DNA from: Thermoanaerobacteraceae bacterium
GTDB taxonomy: Bacteria > Bacillota > Thermoanaerobacteria > Thermoanaerobacterales > UBA4877
Direction of reading: 5' to 3'
DNA: 39,828 nt
Assembly (NCBI GenBank): GCA_030016635.1
Contig: JASEJQ010000017.1
Location: 1 to 39,828 of the forward strand
Positions 149-7,928 of this stretch are shown in pieces. Made by a program: the position numbers and the translations under genes. The notes under the pieces are model-generated. The model did not search any database. It worked only from the letters and a program-made list of their open reading frames with translations, and was not told the DNA's origin. Position 1 is the first letter of the stretch. Each line of letters begins with the position of its first letter.

Positions 149-973
149 TTAAGAAACGACTACCTCTGAGATCATATTGTCAAGATTTAATATTGTGTTC
201 GTCGGACATCTTGGTATACATGCGCCGCAGTTGGTACAACCATCGTAGTTTATTATGGCAAGGTCTTTATCCATCGTAATTACCTTCTCAGGACATTGCC
301 TTACACATATGCTGCATGCTATGCACCCTACCTTGCATATCTGTCTTACCCTCTTCCCCTTGTCATGATTATTGCAGAATATAATAACTCTCTTGCTGAT
401 GTCGATTAGCTGAATGACATTCTTAGGACATACATCAACGCATACACCACATCCGGTACATTTTTCCTCGTCAGACTCTGCGATGCCCTCAGGCGTCACA
501 TGTATAGCATCAAATTGGCACGCCTTCTCACATGTGCCAAGGCCAAGGCACCCATACTCGCATTCCTTGTCACCGCCTGCCAGGGCATTGGCTGCTCTGC
601 AGTCCTCTATGCCATGATATTTATATTTCTTTACTGCATTATTATCGGTACCCTTGCACATTACCCTTGCTATCTTCTTTTCTACCTTTCCTGCTTCTGT
701 ACCCATGATTGCAGCAAGGGCTTCTGCAACGGCCTGGCCACCAACAACACACTTATTGGTACCGGCTTTCCCCTCAGCTACCGCCTGAGCATAGGCATCA
801 CATGAAGCAAAGCCGCAGCCGCCATCATTAGCTCCTGGCAGCGCATCTCTAACCTTCTGCTGCAGTGGATTTACCTCCACATAGAACTTCTGAGAAGCAT
901 AGGCCAGTATGGCGCCAAACAGAAGACCCATACCACCCAGAACCAAAAGCGGATACAATATTTCCTGTAGCAA
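149..973 (-). CDS. rnfB: Rnf complex iron-sulfur subunit RnfB
   Basis: Polyferredoxin subunit of the membrane-bound Rnf complex, which receives electrons from reduced ferredoxin and passes them toward NAD+ while ions are pumped. The 274-residue protein begins with one hydrophobic membrane anchor (about residues 5-27). A cysteine cluster with CGFASC around residue 55 follows, as in the RnfB/RsxB family, then several 4Fe-4S ferredoxin motifs, including CTGCGVCVDVCP, CIACSICVRQCP and CTNCGACIPRCP. The start is a TTG preceded by GGGGG at good spacing. It is the last gene of the operon, 12 bases after rnfA, and is followed by a terminator. The family assignment is secure; the pumped ion (H+ or Na+) cannot be read from the sequence. 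Confidence 0.97.
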   Translation of the reverse strand: MLQEILYPLLVLGGMGLLFGAILAYASQKFYVEVNPLQQKVRDALPGANDGGCGFASCDAYAQAVAEGKAGTNKCVVGGQAVAEALAAIMGTEAGKVEKKIARVMCKGTDNNAVKKYKYHGIEDCRAANALAGGDKECEYGCLGLGTCEKACQFDAIHVTPEGIAESDEEKCTGCGVCVDVCPKNVIQLIDISKRVIIFCNNHDKGKRVRQICKVGCIACSICVRQCPEKVITMDKDLAIINYDGCTNCGACIPRCPTNTILNLDNMISEVVVS

Positions 974-985
974 TTTATTACCCCC

Positions 986-1564
986 TTATACGAGTCCTCT
1001 AAATCCTAAAAACGCCAGAGAAAGAAGCCCTGCACCTATTAATGCAGAAGGAAAGCCTTCCAAAGCCTTTGGGATAGGAGCCAATGCAAGTCTCTCCCTG
1101 ATACCTGCATACGAAATCAAAGCAAACGCAAAACCCACAGATGAGCCAAAACCATTCACAACAGCCTCTATAAAATTATAAGGATTCTGTACGTTTAGAA
1201 GCGCCACTCCTAAAACTGCGCAGTTAGTAGTTATAAGCGGGAGATAAATTCCCAGGGCTTGATAAAGTGTTGGACTTGTTTTTTTAATTACCATCTCAAC
1301 AAATTGCACCAGTGATGCAATAACAACTATAAAAGCTATTATCTGCAAATATTCCAAACCAAATGGAACAAGAATGTAATTATTAATTAAATAAGTGATT
1401 GCCGCAGTCATGGTCATGACAAATATAACAGCAATGCTCATCCCTGTAGCAGTTTCTACCTGTTTGGAGACTCCAAGGAATGGACATTCACCCAAAAATC
1501 TGGATAGCAGAAAGTTATTTACAAAAATAGAACTAACCAATATTAACAGCAGATTCGTCAACAT
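986..1564 (-). CDS. rnfA: Rnf complex membrane subunit RnfA
   Basis: Integral membrane subunit of the Rnf complex. The 192 residues form about six transmembrane helices and match the RnfA/RsxA family in length. Two conserved cysteines are visible, in GECPFLG near residue 27 and TTNCAVLG near residue 112. In this family the RnfA and RnfE cysteines together hold an iron-sulfur cluster inside the membrane. The ATG start lies 32 bases inside the end of rnfE, with AGGAGGG about seven bases upstream, so the genes overlap and are probably translationally coupled. Confidence 0.96.
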   Translation of the reverse strand: MLTNLLLILVSSIFVNNFLLSRFLGECPFLGVSKQVETATGMSIAVIFVMTMTAAITYLINNYILVPFGLEYLQIIAFIVVIASLVQFVEMVIKKTSPTLYQALGIYLPLITTNCAVLGVALLNVQNPYNFIEAVVNGFGSSVGFAFALISYAGIRERLALAPIPKALEGFPSALIGAGLLSLAFLGFRGLV

Positions 1565-2189
1565 TTACAGCCCTCCTTTTCTGAGCCCCTTTTCTTTTGG
1601 CAGATAAAGCCGTCATCATGTTAAAGAAACCTATTAGCAATCCTAACGTTAAAAAGGCTCCTGGTGGAAGCACCATCAACAGTACAGGTTGAAATGAATC
1701 AGGCATCACCTGGATTCCAAGGAATGTCCCATTACCAAGTATCTCTCTTACAGTACTGATAATTACCAACGCCAATGTAAAACCAAGTCCCATTCCTAAT
1801 GAATCAAAAAACGTATTGATTACCGGATTTTTTGAGGCAAAACCCTCTGCTCTTGCCATTATTATACAGTTGACAACTATCAACGAAATATACAGCTTCA
1901 GTACATTATATAAGCTTAAAAAATAGGCATTCATAAGCATAGCAATTATAGTTGTAAATGTTGCAATACTTATAACAAAAATAGGCATTCTAATTTTCTC
2001 TGGTGTTATTTTTCTCAACGCAGATATTATCACAGTGGAACCAATCAAAACAAATGTAGTAGCAAGCCCCATAGCAATACCATTGGCTACAGCATTGGTT
2101 ACAGCAAGGGTAGGACATAGACCTACAACCATTCTGAATGTAGGATTCTCTCTCCATAATCCACGTGTTAAGTCAACTAAATAACCCAT
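1533..2189 (-). CDS. rnfE: Rnf complex membrane subunit RnfE
   Basis: Integral membrane subunit homologous to RnfA, with about six transmembrane helices. It carries the paired conserved cysteines in GLCPTLAVTNA and VVNCIIMARAE, which with those of RnfA bind the intramembrane iron-sulfur cluster in studied Rnf complexes. A longer frame begins at a GTG at 2198, but that GTG is part of AGGAGGTG. The ATG at 2189, eight bases after AGGAGG, is the better start and gives 218 residues. The C-terminal tail is basic and hydrophilic and is encoded where the gene overlaps rnfA. Confidence 0.96.
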   Translation of the reverse strand: MGYLVDLTRGLWRENPTFRMVVGLCPTLAVTNAVANGIAMGLATTFVLIGSTVIISALRKITPEKIRMPIFVISIATFTTIIAMLMNAYFLSLYNVLKLYISLIVVNCIIMARAEGFASKNPVINTFFDSLGMGLGFTLALVIISTVREILGNGTFLGIQVMPDSFQPVLLMVLPPGAFLTLGLLIGFFNMMTALSAKRKGAQKRRAVNVDESAVNIG

Positions 2190-2208
2190 AATTTTCACCT
2201 CCTACACG

Positions 2209-2808
2209 CTATTTATTTATCTTTTTAAATGTTTCAATTGCAGTTTGGACGCCATTCGTAACTGCAGTCGAAGTAATTGTTGCCCCTGTCAATGCCTCTA
2301 CTTCCTCAGGACTTGAAACAGGTCTCTTGACCAATTTTAATTCCATATCAGCAGTCTTCCCTTTAAACTGACCCTGCCACTCAGGGTCCTGAGCTTTGGC
2401 ACCAAGGCCCGGCGTCTCAGAATGATTGACTATGTTTATACCTGTCAGTTTGCCATCCTTTGTTATTCCAACTATTGTTTCAACAGGTCCACCATAGCCT
2501 TGCGGTGCCACCTTTATAACAAAGCCTAACACATTGCCATTATCCTTAGCCATATCCACTGTCTTTACTATCTCTTTTTCTTCGCCTTCTAAAAGTGGCT
2601 CCCATTCTGAAGCATCCATAGGGGCAAATTCTTTTGCTTCAGGGAAAGCTGCCATCTTGGCCTGATCCTCAGCGATTTTATTCTGTTCTGCAATAGGACC
2701 CTTTGTGATAGCATTTACATACCCCAAGGCCACACCGGCAACACCGGCAATCAGAAGAAGAATAAGACCGGTTACTATTATATCTTTTACTCCACCATTC
2801 TTAGGCAA
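2209..2808 (-). CDS. rnfG: Rnf complex FMN-binding subunit RnfG
   Basis: RnfG subunit, with one N-terminal membrane helix (about residues 9-30) followed by an extracytoplasmic FMN-binding domain. The motif TGATITSTAV near the C-terminus contains the threonine to which FMN is covalently attached in this family. The start is a TTG at 2808, placed about eight bases after GGGAGG and inside the last codons of rnfD, so the two genes overlap by eight bases. The length of 199 residues is normal. Covalent flavinylation needs an ApbE-type transferase, which is not encoded in this window. Confidence 0.95.
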   Translation of the reverse strand: MPKNGGVKDIIVTGLILLLIAGVAGVALGYVNAITKGPIAEQNKIAEDQAKMAAFPEAKEFAPMDASEWEPLLEGEEKEIVKTVDMAKDNGNVLGFVIKVAPQGYGGPVETIVGITKDGKLTGINIVNHSETPGLGAKAQDPEWQGQFKGKTADMELKLVKRPVSSPEEVEALTGATITSTAVTNGVQTAIETFKKINK

Positions 2809-3766
2809 CTTTCTTCACCTCCCTGGTACCAAACACTCTTGGCATTGTATATCTGTCTATAAGAGGTGTTACCATGTTCATTAGCAGTATCGAGTAGGAA
2901 ACACCCTCTGGATAACCTCCCCAGAGCCTTATGACACTGGTAAGAAGCCCGCAGCCTATACCCATTATTACCTGTCCCAACGGAGTAACCGGTGACGTGG
3001 GATAGTCTGTAGCCATAAAGAAAGCACCCAGAATGAGTCCTCCACCAAGTATATGATAAAGGAAAGGTCCTGTAAACATACCATTTGGCCCAAAAATCCA
3101 TGTCATAACACCCACTGTAATAATAAATGAGAGTGGTATCCTTAAATTAATAACTTTTCTGTAAAGCAGGTACGCTGCACCAATCAGTAAAGCCAGCGCT
3201 GATGTTTCACCAATAGTACCGCCGATGTTACCCACAAACATTGTCCATAGATTAGGGAGCTGCGCGCCAGCTACCTCTGTCCCCTTTAATATGGCAAGAG
3301 GTGTAGCAGAGGATACCCCGTCCACGGCCCCCGGCACTGCCCAGGTTGTCATCTGTACAGGCCATGAAGCCAGGAGAAATGCTCTGGCCGCAAGAGCCGG
3401 GTTTACAAAGTTATTACCTATACCGCCAAAACACATTTTTACAATTGCTATAGCAAAAAATGAGCCTACAGCAGGAATCCACCATGATACAGTAGGAGGT
3501 ACATTAAAAGCGACCAGCATTCCAGTAACGACCGCGCTGAAATCATCTATGGTAATCTCTTTGTGCAGCAGGACCTCAATAACATACTCTGTAAGAACCG
3601 CTGCAGCAACCGATATGATTGTCAAAAGCAGTGCTCTCATGCCAAAAAATATTGTACCAGCAATTAATGCCGGTATTAAAGCTATAACAACATCAAGCAT
3701 TATGCGCTCTATCTTGAATTCAGAACGAAAATGTGGTGACGATGTGACAAGAAATTGATTATCCAT
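2801..3766 (-). CDS. rnfD: Rnf complex membrane subunit RnfD
   Basis: Multi-spanning membrane subunit of the NqrB/RnfD family, 321 residues. The motif SSATPLAILKG includes the threonine that carries covalently bound FMN in Rnf and Nqr complexes. Long hydrophobic helices alternate with short loops across the whole length, consistent with a central part in ion translocation. The ATG is preceded by AAGGGGGG and lies 12 bases after the rnfC stop codon. Confidence 0.96.
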   Translation of the reverse strand: MDNQFLVTSSPHFRSEFKIERIMLDVVIALIPALIAGTIFFGMRALLLTIISVAAAVLTEYVIEVLLHKEITIDDFSAVVTGMLVAFNVPPTVSWWIPAVGSFFAIAIVKMCFGGIGNNFVNPALAARAFLLASWPVQMTTWAVPGAVDGVSSATPLAILKGTEVAGAQLPNLWTMFVGNIGGTIGETSALALLIGAAYLLYRKVINLRIPLSFIITVGVMTWIFGPNGMFTGPFLYHILGGGLILGAFFMATDYPTSPVTPLGQVIMGIGCGLLTSVIRLWGGYPEGVSYSILLMNMVTPLIDRYTMPRVFGTREVKKVA

Positions 3767-3778
3767 TCAATACCCCCC

Positions 3779-5110
3779 TTAAGCCTGTTTTCTTCTTTTG
3801 GCCAGTATTTCTCTTTTAGCCTGTCTTATGGATTCTACAAGCGGTCTCTTGCACGGGCAGATATATGAACAGCAACCGCATTCAATACAATCCAGGGCAT
3901 GGTATTTTTCTGCAGTGTCAAAATCATCGTTTAATGAATACATGCTTATAAATAACGGCATTAAGTTCATAGGACATACGTCCACGCACTTAGCACACTT
4001 TGTACACGGCCTTACTTTTTCTGGCTTTGTCATATCATCAGGAAGTATGAGCACACCGGATGTACCTTTTATTGCAGGTATCTCCAGAGTGAACTGAGCA
4101 ATGCCCATCATAGGTCCGCCGGTAATTAGTTTACCTGGATTGCCATTAAAACCGCCGCAGTATTCTATCATATCTTTTAACATTGTCCCGATCCTCACAA
4201 GGAGGTTCTTAGGATTTTTAACGGCCTGGCCGGTTATCGTAACTACCCTTTCCACGAGTGGCATTCCTTGCTGTATAGCTCTGGCTATAGAATATGCTGT
4301 GCCTACATTGTCAACCACAACACCAACGTCTGCAGGAAGCCCACCCGAAGGTACCTCCCTTCCTGTTACAGCCTTTATCAGCTGTTTTTCACCGCCTTGT
4401 GGATATTTTGTAGCCAGCCTTACAACTTCAACACCTTCTGCCCCTGCTGTCGCCTTCTCCATTGCCTCTATAGCGTCTGGCTTGTTTACCTCAATAGCTA
4501 TAAATCCATTCTTAACATTTAAAGCCTTGAGGATAGCCTTCAGTCCAAAAACAATCTCCTCTGGATGTTCTACCATTAGCCGATGGTCACATGTGAGATA
4601 CGGCTCACACTCAGCACCATTTATTATCACTGTGTCTACCTTTTTGTCAGGAGGAGGCGATAATTTCACGTGTGTCGGGAATGCAGCTCCGCCCATGCCT
4701 GCTATCCCGGCCTCTTTGATTATGTTTTTGATATCATCTGAAGTCAGGCTTTCCAGATTTCCCTTGGGCTTTATACTCTCATCTAAAGTATCCAGGTTAT
4801 CGTTTTCAATCACAACGGCGTTGACAAATCTGCCGGAAGGATGCAGTCTGGGTTCTATTGCCTTTACCTTACCAGAAACACTGGAATGTACCGGTACAGA
4901 AACAAAACCTTTTGCTTCTCCGATCTTCTGACCCAGTTTTACCTCATCCCCAACCTTGACAAGAGGCTCACAGGGTGCACCTGCATGCTGCGAAAGCGGT
5001 ATTATAACCTCTTTAGGTACAGGCATGACCTCTATAGGCAAGCGGTTTGTGAGCTCTTTATTATATTGAGGATGAACACCGCCTTTAAAAGTCAGTATCT
5101 GAACGCTCAT
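3779..5110 (-). CDS. rnfC: Rnf complex NADH-binding subunit RnfC
   Basis: Peripheral subunit that holds FMN and binds NAD(H), making it the exit point for electrons on their way from ferredoxin to NAD+. The 443-residue protein has an N-terminal RnfC barrel domain, a glycine-rich GMGGAAFPTHVKL segment typical of the NuoF-like flavin/NADH domain, and two C-terminal 4Fe-4S motifs (CTKCAKCVDVCP and CIECGCCSYICP). It is the first gene of rnfCDGEAB, the usual clostridial order. The ATG follows AAAGGAG at acceptable spacing. About 150 non-coding bases upstream hold the probable promoter. Confidence 0.97.
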   Translation of the reverse strand: MSVQILTFKGGVHPQYNKELTNRLPIEVMPVPKEVIIPLSQHAGAPCEPLVKVGDEVKLGQKIGEAKGFVSVPVHSSVSGKVKAIEPRLHPSGRFVNAVVIENDNLDTLDESIKPKGNLESLTSDDIKNIIKEAGIAGMGGAAFPTHVKLSPPPDKKVDTVIINGAECEPYLTCDHRLMVEHPEEIVFGLKAILKALNVKNGFIAIEVNKPDAIEAMEKATAGAEGVEVVRLATKYPQGGEKQLIKAVTGREVPSGGLPADVGVVVDNVGTAYSIARAIQQGMPLVERVVTITGQAVKNPKNLLVRIGTMLKDMIEYCGGFNGNPGKLITGGPMMGIAQFTLEIPAIKGTSGVLILPDDMTKPEKVRPCTKCAKCVDVCPMNLMPLFISMYSLNDDFDTAEKYHALDCIECGCCSYICPCKRPLVESIRQAKREILAKRRKQA

Positions 5111-5179
5111 CTAATCTTATCACTCCTTTAATTTTAAATGGACTTCTTATTATTCTACATAGAACGCCAAAAATCCTGT

Positions 5180-5202
5180 TTGTTAAAATTTTAATTATTA
5201 TA
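5180..5202 (-). promoter_or_regulatory. Probable rnf promoter -10 with Rex-like operator
   Basis: On the minus strand TATAAT lies at 5202-5197, about 90 bases before rnfC; no convincing -35 is visible at the right distance. Directly downstream, at 5180-5197, the plus strand reads TTGTTAAAATTTTAATTA. This agrees with the Rex consensus TTGTTAA-N4-TTAACAA at 12 of 14 defined positions, with a perfect left half. A site covering the transcription start would suit repression by Rex, the NADH/NAD+-sensing regulator. A perfect 10-base palindrome, CTGTATACAG, lies at 5212-5221. Rex control is inferred, not shown. Confidence 0.45.
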
Positions 5203-5261
5203 TCTTGAGCACTGTATACAGATATATTTTAACATAAAGTTTATCCATATGAAAGTTCAAT

Positions 5262-6020
5262 TTAAAAATTATACAATTCAATATCCTCAAGTCTTAGCAT
5301 TAACATCTTATACAGGTTTAATGATTTATATATTACTTCCTGTATAATGTAAAAAGACTTGTCATCATTCAGCATAATAGAAATCTCCAGCTTCCCCAGG
5401 GCTTCTTTCTGTAATCTCACAAAGTCTTCAATTTCCGTTAGTTCATTATTCTCAAAGGTCATGCTTTCTAACACGTTATTTATGTTCTCTACCCTTTTTA
5501 AAAGGTCCGCCAAATTGTTTCCACTATCACTACCATTAATTATATGTAGACTTAGTTCACTTTCTTTATCAATTATTGAAATAATATCTCTGATGCATTT
5601 GTTTAATGATTCAATCATATTTTTATTATTTTTGAGGTATGCAACAGTGATGCTGCCTGCCCTTTGTTCTTCTACTTTTGTTTCTATCCCCTTCGAAGTC
5701 AAAAAATTTTCTACTGTAGAGGTTTCTTCCTTTGAAAGTGTACAGGCTATCAATCCGTCTTCATTCAGAAGGTATAAATCTGGAAATATTTCAGGTTCGT
5801 TTATATAGATTTCATAATAAATAAGTGGACTTATTTCGTAACTATCTATAGCATCAGCAGATGCAGGTTCAAGCCTCTTATATAGCGGAGTAACAATTTT
5901 ATATAATAGTTGTTGTGATAAATAAAATGATAAAATCGGTAGAACTAATATGAAAAGCAATAAAATCAAGCTCAATCTTAATCTCTGTCTTTTGTTAACG
6001 GCTGCTCTTTTTATTCTCAT
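5262..6020 (-). CDS. Membrane-anchored protein of unknown function
   Basis: I do not recognise this 252-residue protein. A basic N-terminus (MRIKRAAVNKRQRLR) precedes one hydrophobic segment at about residues 15-36, predicting an anchored protein with its body outside the cell. The remainder is acidic and mostly helical, rich in Leu, Ile, Glu and Asn, with no recognised catalytic motif. One short stretch, VAYLKNNKNMIESLNKCIRDI, resembles the amphipathic helices of structural or sensory modules. The ATG has GGGGG six bases upstream. It is separated from typA by a terminator and from rnfC by the rnf promoter region, so it is probably transcribed alone. The start and reading frame look sound. 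Confidence 0.75.
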   Translation of the reverse strand: MRIKRAAVNKRQRLRLSLILLLFILVLPILSFYLSQQLLYKIVTPLYKRLEPASADAIDSYEISPLIYYEIYINEPEIFPDLYLLNEDGLIACTLSKEETSTVENFLTSKGIETKVEEQRAGSITVAYLKNNKNMIESLNKCIRDIISIIDKESELSLHIINGSDSGNNLADLLKRVENINNVLESMTFENNELTEIEDFVRLQKEALGKLEISIMLNDDKSFYIIQEVIYKSLNLYKMLMLRLEDIELYNF

Positions 6021-6072
6021 GAATATCCCCCAATATTTTGTATTTATGGTATATATTGTAAAATAAAATGAT

Positions 6073-6098
6073 AAAAAAATAAAGGGTATTAACCCTTA
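6073..6098 (-). terminator. Intrinsic terminator after typA
   Basis: A minus-strand stem AAGGGT/ACCCTT with a four-base loop (6082-6097) is followed by TATTTTTTTA. It overlaps the typA stop codon at 6096-6098 and would end typA transcription before the unknown gene at 5262-6020. Confidence 0.75.
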
Positions 6099-7928
6099 TT
6101 TTTGTCCTGATTTTATTATTCTACCCGTATTTTTATACCTGTCTTTTTGAGATAATATTTTTTTCCTTATCCGTATAGATTGAGGTGTAACCTCCATCAA
6201 TTCGTCCTCTGCTAAAAAGTCAAGGGCCTCCTCCAAACTTAAAATCCTTGGAGTAGTTAACCTTATTGCCTCGTCAGCGGTAGCTGACCTGAGATTGGTA
6301 AGATGTTTCTTTTTACACACATTTACATCAATGTCCTCTTCCCGGCTGTTTTCACCAACTACCATACCCTCATATACTTCTACGCCAGGGCTAATAAAAA
6401 GTTCTCCTCTTTCCTGAGCATTATTAAGACCATATGTGGTGGTGGTACCTGTCTCTGAAGCAACTAAAGAACCACGGTTTCTTTCCTTGATATCTCCTTT
6501 ATATGGCTGGTATTCTAAAAACAGATGATTCATTATGCCATTTCCCTTGGTATCTGTCAAGAAATCCGCTCTGTACCCCATTAGACCTCTTGAGGGTATA
6601 TTAAACTCCAGCCTTACAGAGCCTCTATCATTGGGTACCATGTTTACAAGTTCTGCCTTTCTTGGGCCCAGTTTTTCCATGATAATTCCCATATATTCTT
6701 CGGGGACATCTATGATAAGAGTCTCTACAGGTTCATATTTTTTGCCGTTTATAATCTTATATATAACCTCGGGTTTCGACACCTGAAACTCGTATCCTTC
6801 TCTTCGCATAGTCTCTATAAGTATAGATAAATGCAGTTCTCCTCTCCCGGATACCTTAAATGTATCAGGTGTATCTGTCTCCTCCACCTTCAGCGATACA
6901 TTTGTCTCAAGTTCCTTATACAGCCTTTCTCTCAGATGTCTTGAGGTAACATACTGGCCCTCTTTACCCGCAAAAGGGCTGTTGTTGGTAGAGAAGTTCA
7001 TTGAAATGGTAGGCTCCTCTATCTCTACAAAACTTACAGATTCAGGGAAATCAACATCAGCTATTGTCTCTCCAATCTCTATGTCGGAGATTCCGGATAC
7101 TGCAATAATATCTCCCATAAGGGCTTCATTGCTTTCTACCCTCTTTAATGCCTCATACTGATATACTATGCCTGCTTTCCCCTTTTGAACAGAGCCGTCC
7201 TTTTTTACAATGCTTACCTGCTGCCCGCCAGTTATTTTGCCCCTTATTATCCTGCCTATAGCCAGCCTTCCCACATAGTCGTCATAATCCAAATTGGTAA
7301 CCAAGAATTGAAGTGGTGCATCAATTTCTCCTTCAGGTGCCGGTATACTCTCTATTATAGTATCAAAAAGTGGCTTTAAATTATTGCTTTCATCCTTGAG
7401 GTCATACTTGGCTACAGCCTCTCGCGCCGATGTATAAACTATAGGAAATTCTAACTGTTCTTCTGATGCACCAAGCTCAATAAAGAGATTGAGGACCTCG
7501 TCAATCACCTCGTACGGTCTGGCATCAGGTCTATCGATTTTATTTATAACCACGATGGGCTTTAAATTTAGGGAAAGAGCCTTACCAAGGACAAAACGTG
7601 TTTGAGGCATGGGACCCTCGCTGGCGTCTACGAGCAGCAGCACACCATCCACCATTTTAAGAACCCTTTCCACTTCACCCCCAAAATCAGCATGTCCCGG
7701 CGTATCTACAATATTTATCTTAGTATTGTTATATCTAACTGCAGTGTTCTTCGCCAGTATGGTTATTCCTCTCTCTCTTTCCAGCTCGTTGGAATCCATA
7801 ATCCTTTCATCTACTTTTTGATTCTCTCGAAATATGCCGCTCTGTTTCAGCATACCGTCTACCAGTGTAGTCTTCCCATGGTCTACATGGGCTATAATTG
7901 CTATATTCCTAATATCATTTCTTTTCAT
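6096..7928 (-). CDS. typA: Ribosome-associated GTPase TypA/BipA
   Basis: Translational GTPase of the TypA/BipA family, which binds the ribosome and supports 50S assembly and stress or cold adaptation in studied bacteria. The N-terminus carries the GTPase motifs AHVDHGKTT (G1), DTPGH (G3) and NKID (G4). EF-G-like domains and the BipA-specific C-terminal domain follow. The frame can be extended to a TTG at 7946, but GGAAGGGG lies about eight bases before the ATG at 7928, so I use that ATG (610 residues, normal for the family). The leader contains a consensus promoter and a terminator-like hairpin. Confidence 0.95.

Follow-up and report, generated by a model that had tools for sequence, protein, structure and literature searches.

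A predicted sigma-H promoter adjoined by a Rex-like box in front of the rnf operon of a Thermoanaerobacteraceae bacterium

The window, by which we mean the whole analysed stretch of 39,828 nucleotides, is contig C23 of a 2.35-Mb genome in 114 contigs (the own genome, G000). NCBIfam profile matches identified an rnf operon on its minus strand with the gene order rnfC-D-G-E-A-B. The region in front of the operon was compared with that of a sister genome (G001) and of a genome from the same order but another family (G021). The features of the locus are as follows.

149–3766, minus strand: rnfD, rnfG, rnfE, rnfA and rnfB, in that order (NCBIfam).
3779–5110, minus strand: rnfC, the first gene of the operon rnfCDGEAB (TIGR01945, 596 bits; start at 5110).
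5123–5129, minus strand: likely ribosome binding site of rnfC, AAAGGAG, judged from its position; 5111–5125 is identical to G001 in 15/15 columns.
5150–5179, minus strand: sigma-H type promoter ACAGGATTT-N12-GTAGAATAA, with −35 AGGATTT at 5171–5177, −10 TGTAGAAT at 5152–5159 and a predicted start at ~5145.
5180–5197, minus strand: Rex-like operator, TAATTAAAATTTTAACAA on the coding strand, with a perfect half-site TTAACAA and a degraded half TAATTAA.
5197–5202, minus strand: TATAAT of the preliminary description, with no recognisable −35 at the usual spacing.
5198–5261, minus strand: conserved upstream block, identical to G001 in 60/65 columns (92%) against 57% in the flanking CDS.
5212–5221, minus strand: 10-base palindrome CTGTATACAG, whose inner TGTATACA is kept in G001; a candidate regulator site or chance.
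5226–5234, minus strand: possible second, sigma-A promoter with extended −10 TGTTAAAAT, from a consensus scan, within the block conserved in G001.
5262–6020, minus strand: ORF of 252 aa located 5′ of rnfC, family unassigned (NCBIfam and Pfam gave no match).

The rnfC leader (5111–5261) is 151 nt long and has a GC content of 24%. Searching Rfam over 3700–6200 gave no match, and no RNA leader element was found in this region. The 252-aa ORF lies between rnf and typA and precedes rnfC in both G000 and G001, with 43% identity between the two; the upstream CDS is identical to that of G001 in 338/596 columns (57%).

The leader was compared with the sigma-H consensus, which we take to be RNAGGAWWW-N11/12-RNNGAATWW from B. 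subtilis. It satisfies this strict consensus at all positions and contains the sole match on either strand of the 39.8-kb window; an equally strict match arose in 22 of 20,000 shuffles of the leader. Alignment with G001 showed identical columns at 7/7 positions of the −35 and 10/11 of the −10, compared with 5/11 of the spacer. The strict pattern is found in the rnf leaders of G000, G001 and G021. These three were the real matches among ten leaders of the order (200 nt each), whereas 500 rounds of shuffling gave one match in nine rounds and two in none. The gene for the sigma factor, sigH, is present (G000:C1:280–873; 367.9 bits against a cut-off of 294.8) and was detected in 24/24 genomes of the order examined. 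Judged from these sequence data, rnf is very probably transcribed by sigma-H.

The promoter module was revealed by aligning the rnf and V-ATPase leaders, in which AGGATTT and then TGTMGAAT follow 3′ of the Rex-like box. A genome search with AGGANNT...TGTCGAAT, a pattern that leaves out the rnf promoter since its −10 reads TGTAGAAT, returned 8 sites, whereas its reversed form returned 5. The gap is 10 or 11 in each of the eight, with 4–18 permitted, and an ORF of at least 60 aa follows each of them at a distance of 25–70 nt; 6/8 also conform to the strict sigma-H pattern. The ORFs behind this set include DivIC, a succinate-type CoA transferase, a glycerate kinase, a Trp/Glu-type dehydrogenase and V-ATPase. 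At two loci (L262 and L266), AGGANNT-N10-TGTCGAAT stands before the succinate-type CoA transferase and an amino-acid dehydrogenase, and because of these promoters fermentation genes may be sigma-H driven in this lineage. Across the wider rnf leaders (best 80 of 570 loci), the strict pattern occurs in 2/80 (L044 and L045), neither of which is among those with a Rex-like box at ≤3 mismatches. TGTCGAA in the V-ATPase and G021 leaders was also considered as a Spo0A box; this reading was dropped, as AGGANNT precedes the motif at fixed spacing.

Adjoining the promoter on its upstream side, positions 5180–5197 read TTGTTAAAATTTTAATTA. Direct reading confirmed both the coordinates and the match count of this 18-base box as first reported, namely 12/14 defined positions of the Rex consensus TTGTTAA-N4-TTAACAA (2 mismatches). 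A box with ≤2 mismatches appeared in 40/5000 dinucleotide shuffles of the 151-nt leader (0.8%), so that the rnf box taken alone looks weak and only modestly above chance. In its degraded half (TAATTAA), the G at position 3 (G3) is replaced by A, in G000 and G001 alike; according to an excerpt of PMC8836258, Arg48 in the reading helix of T. maritima Rex contacts this position-3 G. The G001 box differs by one spacer base and by an extra A in the AACAAA run (17/19 alignment columns identical), and conservation in this genome spans the whole upstream block and does not single out the box. In G021, whose rnfC is 64% identical to that of G000 (88% for G001), the leader carries TTGTTATTTAAATAACAA, a perfect palindrome with both G3 and C16 intact. 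We also scored the rnf box with a PWM built from 17 hand-chosen sites of G000 and G001, rnf excluded, all of which keep G3 and C16. It obtained 13.5 bits, within the leave-one-out range of the training sites (11.2–19.7), two of which lie below it. With a score inside the training range and G3 missing, the rnf box would be a weak Rex site, yet not an impossible one.

Among relatives, the box proved to be kept in G001 and canonical in G021 but absent from most rnf leaders of the order: it was found in 3/10 genomes examined (G000, G001 and G021), and in the remaining seven, with rnfC of at least 60% identity, the best box within 300 nt has 3 to 5 mismatches. A wider survey drew on the best 80 of 570 rnf loci, 79 leaders of which were scanned (L067, too short, was dropped). 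At ≤2 mismatches these 79 leaders gave 3 boxes versus 0 for the reversed pattern, and at ≤3 mismatches 9 versus 9. The Rex box as a general trait of rnf leaders was rejected on these counts.

Each of the ten rnf leaders of the order contains either both elements, the box and the sigma-H promoter (3/10), or neither (7/10; p = 0.008, with G000 and G001 not independent), and the distance between the two is 2–3 nt in the three paired leaders. We collected 26 distinct strict sigma-H matches from loci L001 and L082–L267 and the window; part of these loci had been fetched with the Rex pattern, which biases the following fraction. Four of the 26 have a box of ≤2 mismatches ending 2–6 nt before AGGA, these being the three rnf leaders (G000, G001 and G021) and the V-ATPase leader of G000. 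The other 22 have boxes with at least 4 mismatches (range 4–9), and the reversed pattern never fell below 4 mismatches beside the same promoters (4 versus 0 of 26, p = 0.055). In this collection of sequences, the gap between 2 and 4–9 mismatches stands out despite the sampling bias. Within the TGTCGAAT set, the seven promoters other than V-ATPase show at least 5 box mismatches in the 40 nt upstream.

The leader of the V-ATPase operon (L085:1334–1382) carries a Rex-like box and a sigma-H promoter of the same kind as rnf. Its G001 counterpart reads AGGATTT-N10-TGTCGAAT, in which a single flanking base deviates from the strict pattern; the aligned box has 3 mismatches and keeps G3 and C16. For G021 and G002, the three V-ATPase subunit I loci showed neither box nor sigma-H promoter up to 900 nt upstream.

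The genome encodes the repressor that the preliminary description presupposed. Its single rex gene has as best PDB match the Rex of 3wg9/3wgi (222 residues, E 2e-109), and the two sequences have the DNA-reading helix QIRQD in common; 3WGI is the Rex of T. ethanolicus, as stated in an excerpt of PMC8836258. The Rex DNA-binding family was matched in 24/24 genomes of the order examined, so the presence of rex is no predictor of the box. In three genomes of one genus (G016, G020 and G022), a second gene encodes a DNA-binding domain of the Rex type.

Scanning G000 for the Rex pattern at ≤2 mismatches gave 32 sites against 20 for the reversed pattern (42 against 30 in G001), and given these numbers most of the 32 are background. 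The count at ≤3 mismatches was uninformative (296 versus 269 control). The genome also has a coherent group of boxes at fermentation genes. In G000, 15/32 real sites fall outside any ORF of 60 aa or more, compared with 1/20 control sites (Fisher p = 0.001), and 18/42 do so in G001, a figure without a control set. It is this position outside ORFs, and not match quality alone, that makes the rnf box notable.

The intergenic boxes precede genes for an acyl-CoA dehydrogenase, which we read as bcd, an enoyl-CoA hydratase, read as crt, a CoA transferase and a short-chain dehydrogenase; the ORF after the acyl-CoA dehydrogenase is read as a probable etfB, judged from its start. Others precede an NADH:flavin oxidoreductase, the V-ATPase operon, a sulphur transporter and an ECF transporter, and a further box lies ~250 nt upstream of a set of ORFs, the third of which is glycine reductase component B. 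Boxes recur before the G001 orthologues of the enoyl-CoA hydratase, the acyl-CoA dehydrogenase, the sulphur transporter and the ECF transporter. One match within a coding region is also paired between the two genomes (L171/L225; proteins 99% identical), so that such pairing alone is no proof. G3 and C16 are kept in 13/16 intergenic versus 7/16 coding sites of G000 (p = 0.03), a tally that adds the site before the NADH:flavin oxidoreductase as intergenic, its ORF probably starting later; the rnf box is one of the three exceptions. The figure for G001 is 12/18 intergenic sites. Like the promoter match, rex, sigH and the conservation, these boxes are read directly from the DNA, and across the genome they appear to form a sensible Rex regulon. 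For C. difficile, an excerpt of PMC11481553 lists adhE and grdE among the known targets of Rex. Identical boxes stand 13 nt before the ECF transporter gene in G000 (L174:1538–1555) and G001 (L227:1471–1488), which is not an obvious redox gene.

The interpretation that we favour, with some reserve, is that rnf is transcribed from the sigma-H promoter and has a Rex operator at its upstream edge; taken as a separate question, Rex control of rnf appears somewhat likely from the sequence. The sigma-H promoter might instead work alone, the box being a relic or an AT-rich upstream stretch unbound by Rex. This is a real but doubtful possibility. It would account for the G3 missing from one half in both G000 and G001, the base contacted by Arg48 in T. 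maritima (PMC8836258, excerpt), for a leader of 24% GC in which 0.8% of shuffles match equally well, and for the 7/10 order leaders without a box. It would leave to coincidence that the box adjoins the −35 in 3/3 order leaders with a sigma-H promoter, that the G021 box is fully palindromic and keeps both G and C, and that the seven other TGTCGAAT-set promoters (V-ATPase excluded) have at least 5 mismatches in the 40 nt upstream.

The preliminary description had Rex repress a sigma-A promoter with TATAAT at 5197–5202 as its −10, in which case the sigma-H match would be incidental. The hexamer is present on the minus strand, any start that it drives would have its −7 to +11 region under a Rex dimer bound at the box, and the block 5198–5261 is conserved at 92%. 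However, TATAAT has no recognisable −35 and is not in the promoter list of the consensus scan, and the sigma-H boxes are kept across a diverged spacer and recur in G021. TATAAT was wrongly taken for the rnf promoter, the strongest promoter-type signal being the sigma-H promoter that adjoins the box, and this arrangement as a whole is very improbable. The consensus scan pointed to a different extended −10 site, TTCATA-16-TAAAAT with TG, ending at 5226; its total of 3 sites against a shuffle mean of 2.7 is not above chance. From their sequence, TGTTAAAAT and the TGTATACA palindrome within the block may represent a second promoter and a regulator site. The perfect 10-base palindrome was indeed read at 5212–5221 on the minus strand as CTGTATACAG, and one could suppose that another regulator acts through it and that the likeness to Rex is chance. 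That 60/65 columns upstream of the box are conserved, with the palindrome core TGTATACA kept, fits such a regulator, which could also coexist with Rex and is compatible with our preferred interpretation. As a replacement for Rex it is most unlikely: the exact arrangement has no second copy in the genome, and such a regulator would leave unexplained why a box again stands next to a sigma-H promoter in G021 and at V-ATPase. A single regulator for TGTATACA...CAAGATATA was sought and rejected, the genome holding 21 matches, 11 of them forward and 10 reverse, and the control giving 23; the rnf copy alone is exact and the other 20 carry 3 mismatches.

Bcd-Etf uses up NADH while reducing ferredoxin, Rnf couples the oxidation of that ferredoxin to ion pumping, and the ATPase draws on the resulting gradient. 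For the rnf locus we infer sigma-H use, Rex binding, repression and their physiology as follows. Sigma-H RNA polymerase would initiate at the 5150–5179 promoter, with a predicted start at ~5145. The NAD+ form of the Rex dimer would sit on 5180–5197, 35–52 nt upstream of this start and adjoining the −35, and would hinder the polymerase. When NADH rises, Rex would leave the DNA, which would lift repression from rnf and likewise from Bcd-Etf, Crt and the V-type ATPase. Bcd-Etf would then turn NADH into reduced ferredoxin, from which Rnf would build an ion gradient for the ATPase to harvest. The proposal that Rnf is tuned by the NADH/NAD+ ratio through Rex is in part borne out, by rex, the regulon and the boxes in G001 and G021, but the missing G3 and the boxless leaders in 7/10 genomes weigh against it. 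The reason offered for it, that Rnf makes NADH and hence follows the same ratio, would by itself amount to positive feedback; it becomes sensible only together with the co-regulated, NADH-consuming butyrate genes.

Rnf is a main energy-conserving complex of many anaerobes, and the control of its expression is poorly known. Our results suggest joint control of Rnf by redox state and growth phase. If true, one promoter would place Rnf under a transition-phase sigma factor and a redox repressor, an arrangement shared with the V-type ATPase; the decision to sporulate would be tied to energy supply, and a short, testable DNA target would be at hand. More tentatively, a dedicated composite Rex/sigma-H promoter might couple the pump (Rnf) with the user of its gradient (V-type ATPase), so that anaerobic energy conservation would come on when NADH is high and cells pass into stationary phase and sporulation. 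In late stationary phase, RnfABDE proteins of C. difficile are down by up to 7.7-fold, according to an excerpt of PMC6110889 that does not state the type of rnf promoter. This counts against a simple role in stationary phase. The main text of a C. difficile start-site paper makes no mention of rnf (PMC7438776).

Several known systems resemble parts of this arrangement. Desulfovibrio is a sulphate reducer from a phylum other than that of our genome. Its rnf lies inside the Rex regulon, according to an excerpt of PMC4215793 citing Ravcheev 2012. A Rex site is also predicted before rnfCDGEAB of Caproicibacterium lactatifermentans, with the same operon and consensus; the site, TTATTCAATCTTTAACAA, likewise has no G3 in one half, and it is a prediction alone, for which the excerpted text of PMC9600882 does not name a sigma factor. 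On lactate, rnf of this organism changed by a log2FC of −1.04, opposite to thl-crt-hbd (2.79; PMC9600882, excerpt). A parallel in promoter architecture is fdpF of C. difficile, a redox gene whose promoter depends on an alternative sigma factor and has its −35 overlapped by a Rex box, and for which a rex mutant together with a reporter fusion showed repression by Rex; there the sigma factor is sigma-B and the product a flavodiiron protein, whereas here they are sigma-H and Rnf (PMC11481553, excerpt). In E. limosum, in contrast to the present locus, the rnf promoter at the mapped start has a housekeeping −35/−10 and not a sigma-H type (PMC5651825, excerpt). Rex–rnf links are already known as predictions, and Rex action on a sigma-B promoter has been shown by experiment. 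No report of a sigma-H promoter of rnf, or of a Rex/sigma-H pair, was found in titles and abstract openings, a coverage that takes in few subscription journals. What our analysis suggests as new is the sigma-H promoter of rnf paired with a Rex box, a variation on a known theme.

The use of sigma-H for energy metabolism has precedents. SigH has been reported on formate dehydrogenase and glycogen genes of C. difficile (PMC6384274), and TGTAGAAT is the −10 of two P-SigH promoters of this species (PMC7438776, excerpt). Sporomusa sphaeroides KIAC has an expanded SigH regulon with SigH promoters on energy-metabolism genes, those named being Wood-Ljungdahl, hydrogenase, ack, aor and pfor; the excerpted text does not call Rnf or ATP synthase SigH targets and does not mention Rex (PMC12456013). 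The distance from AGGA to GAAT is 17–18 nt in Sporomusa (PMC12456013, excerpt) and 18 in the rnf promoter described here.
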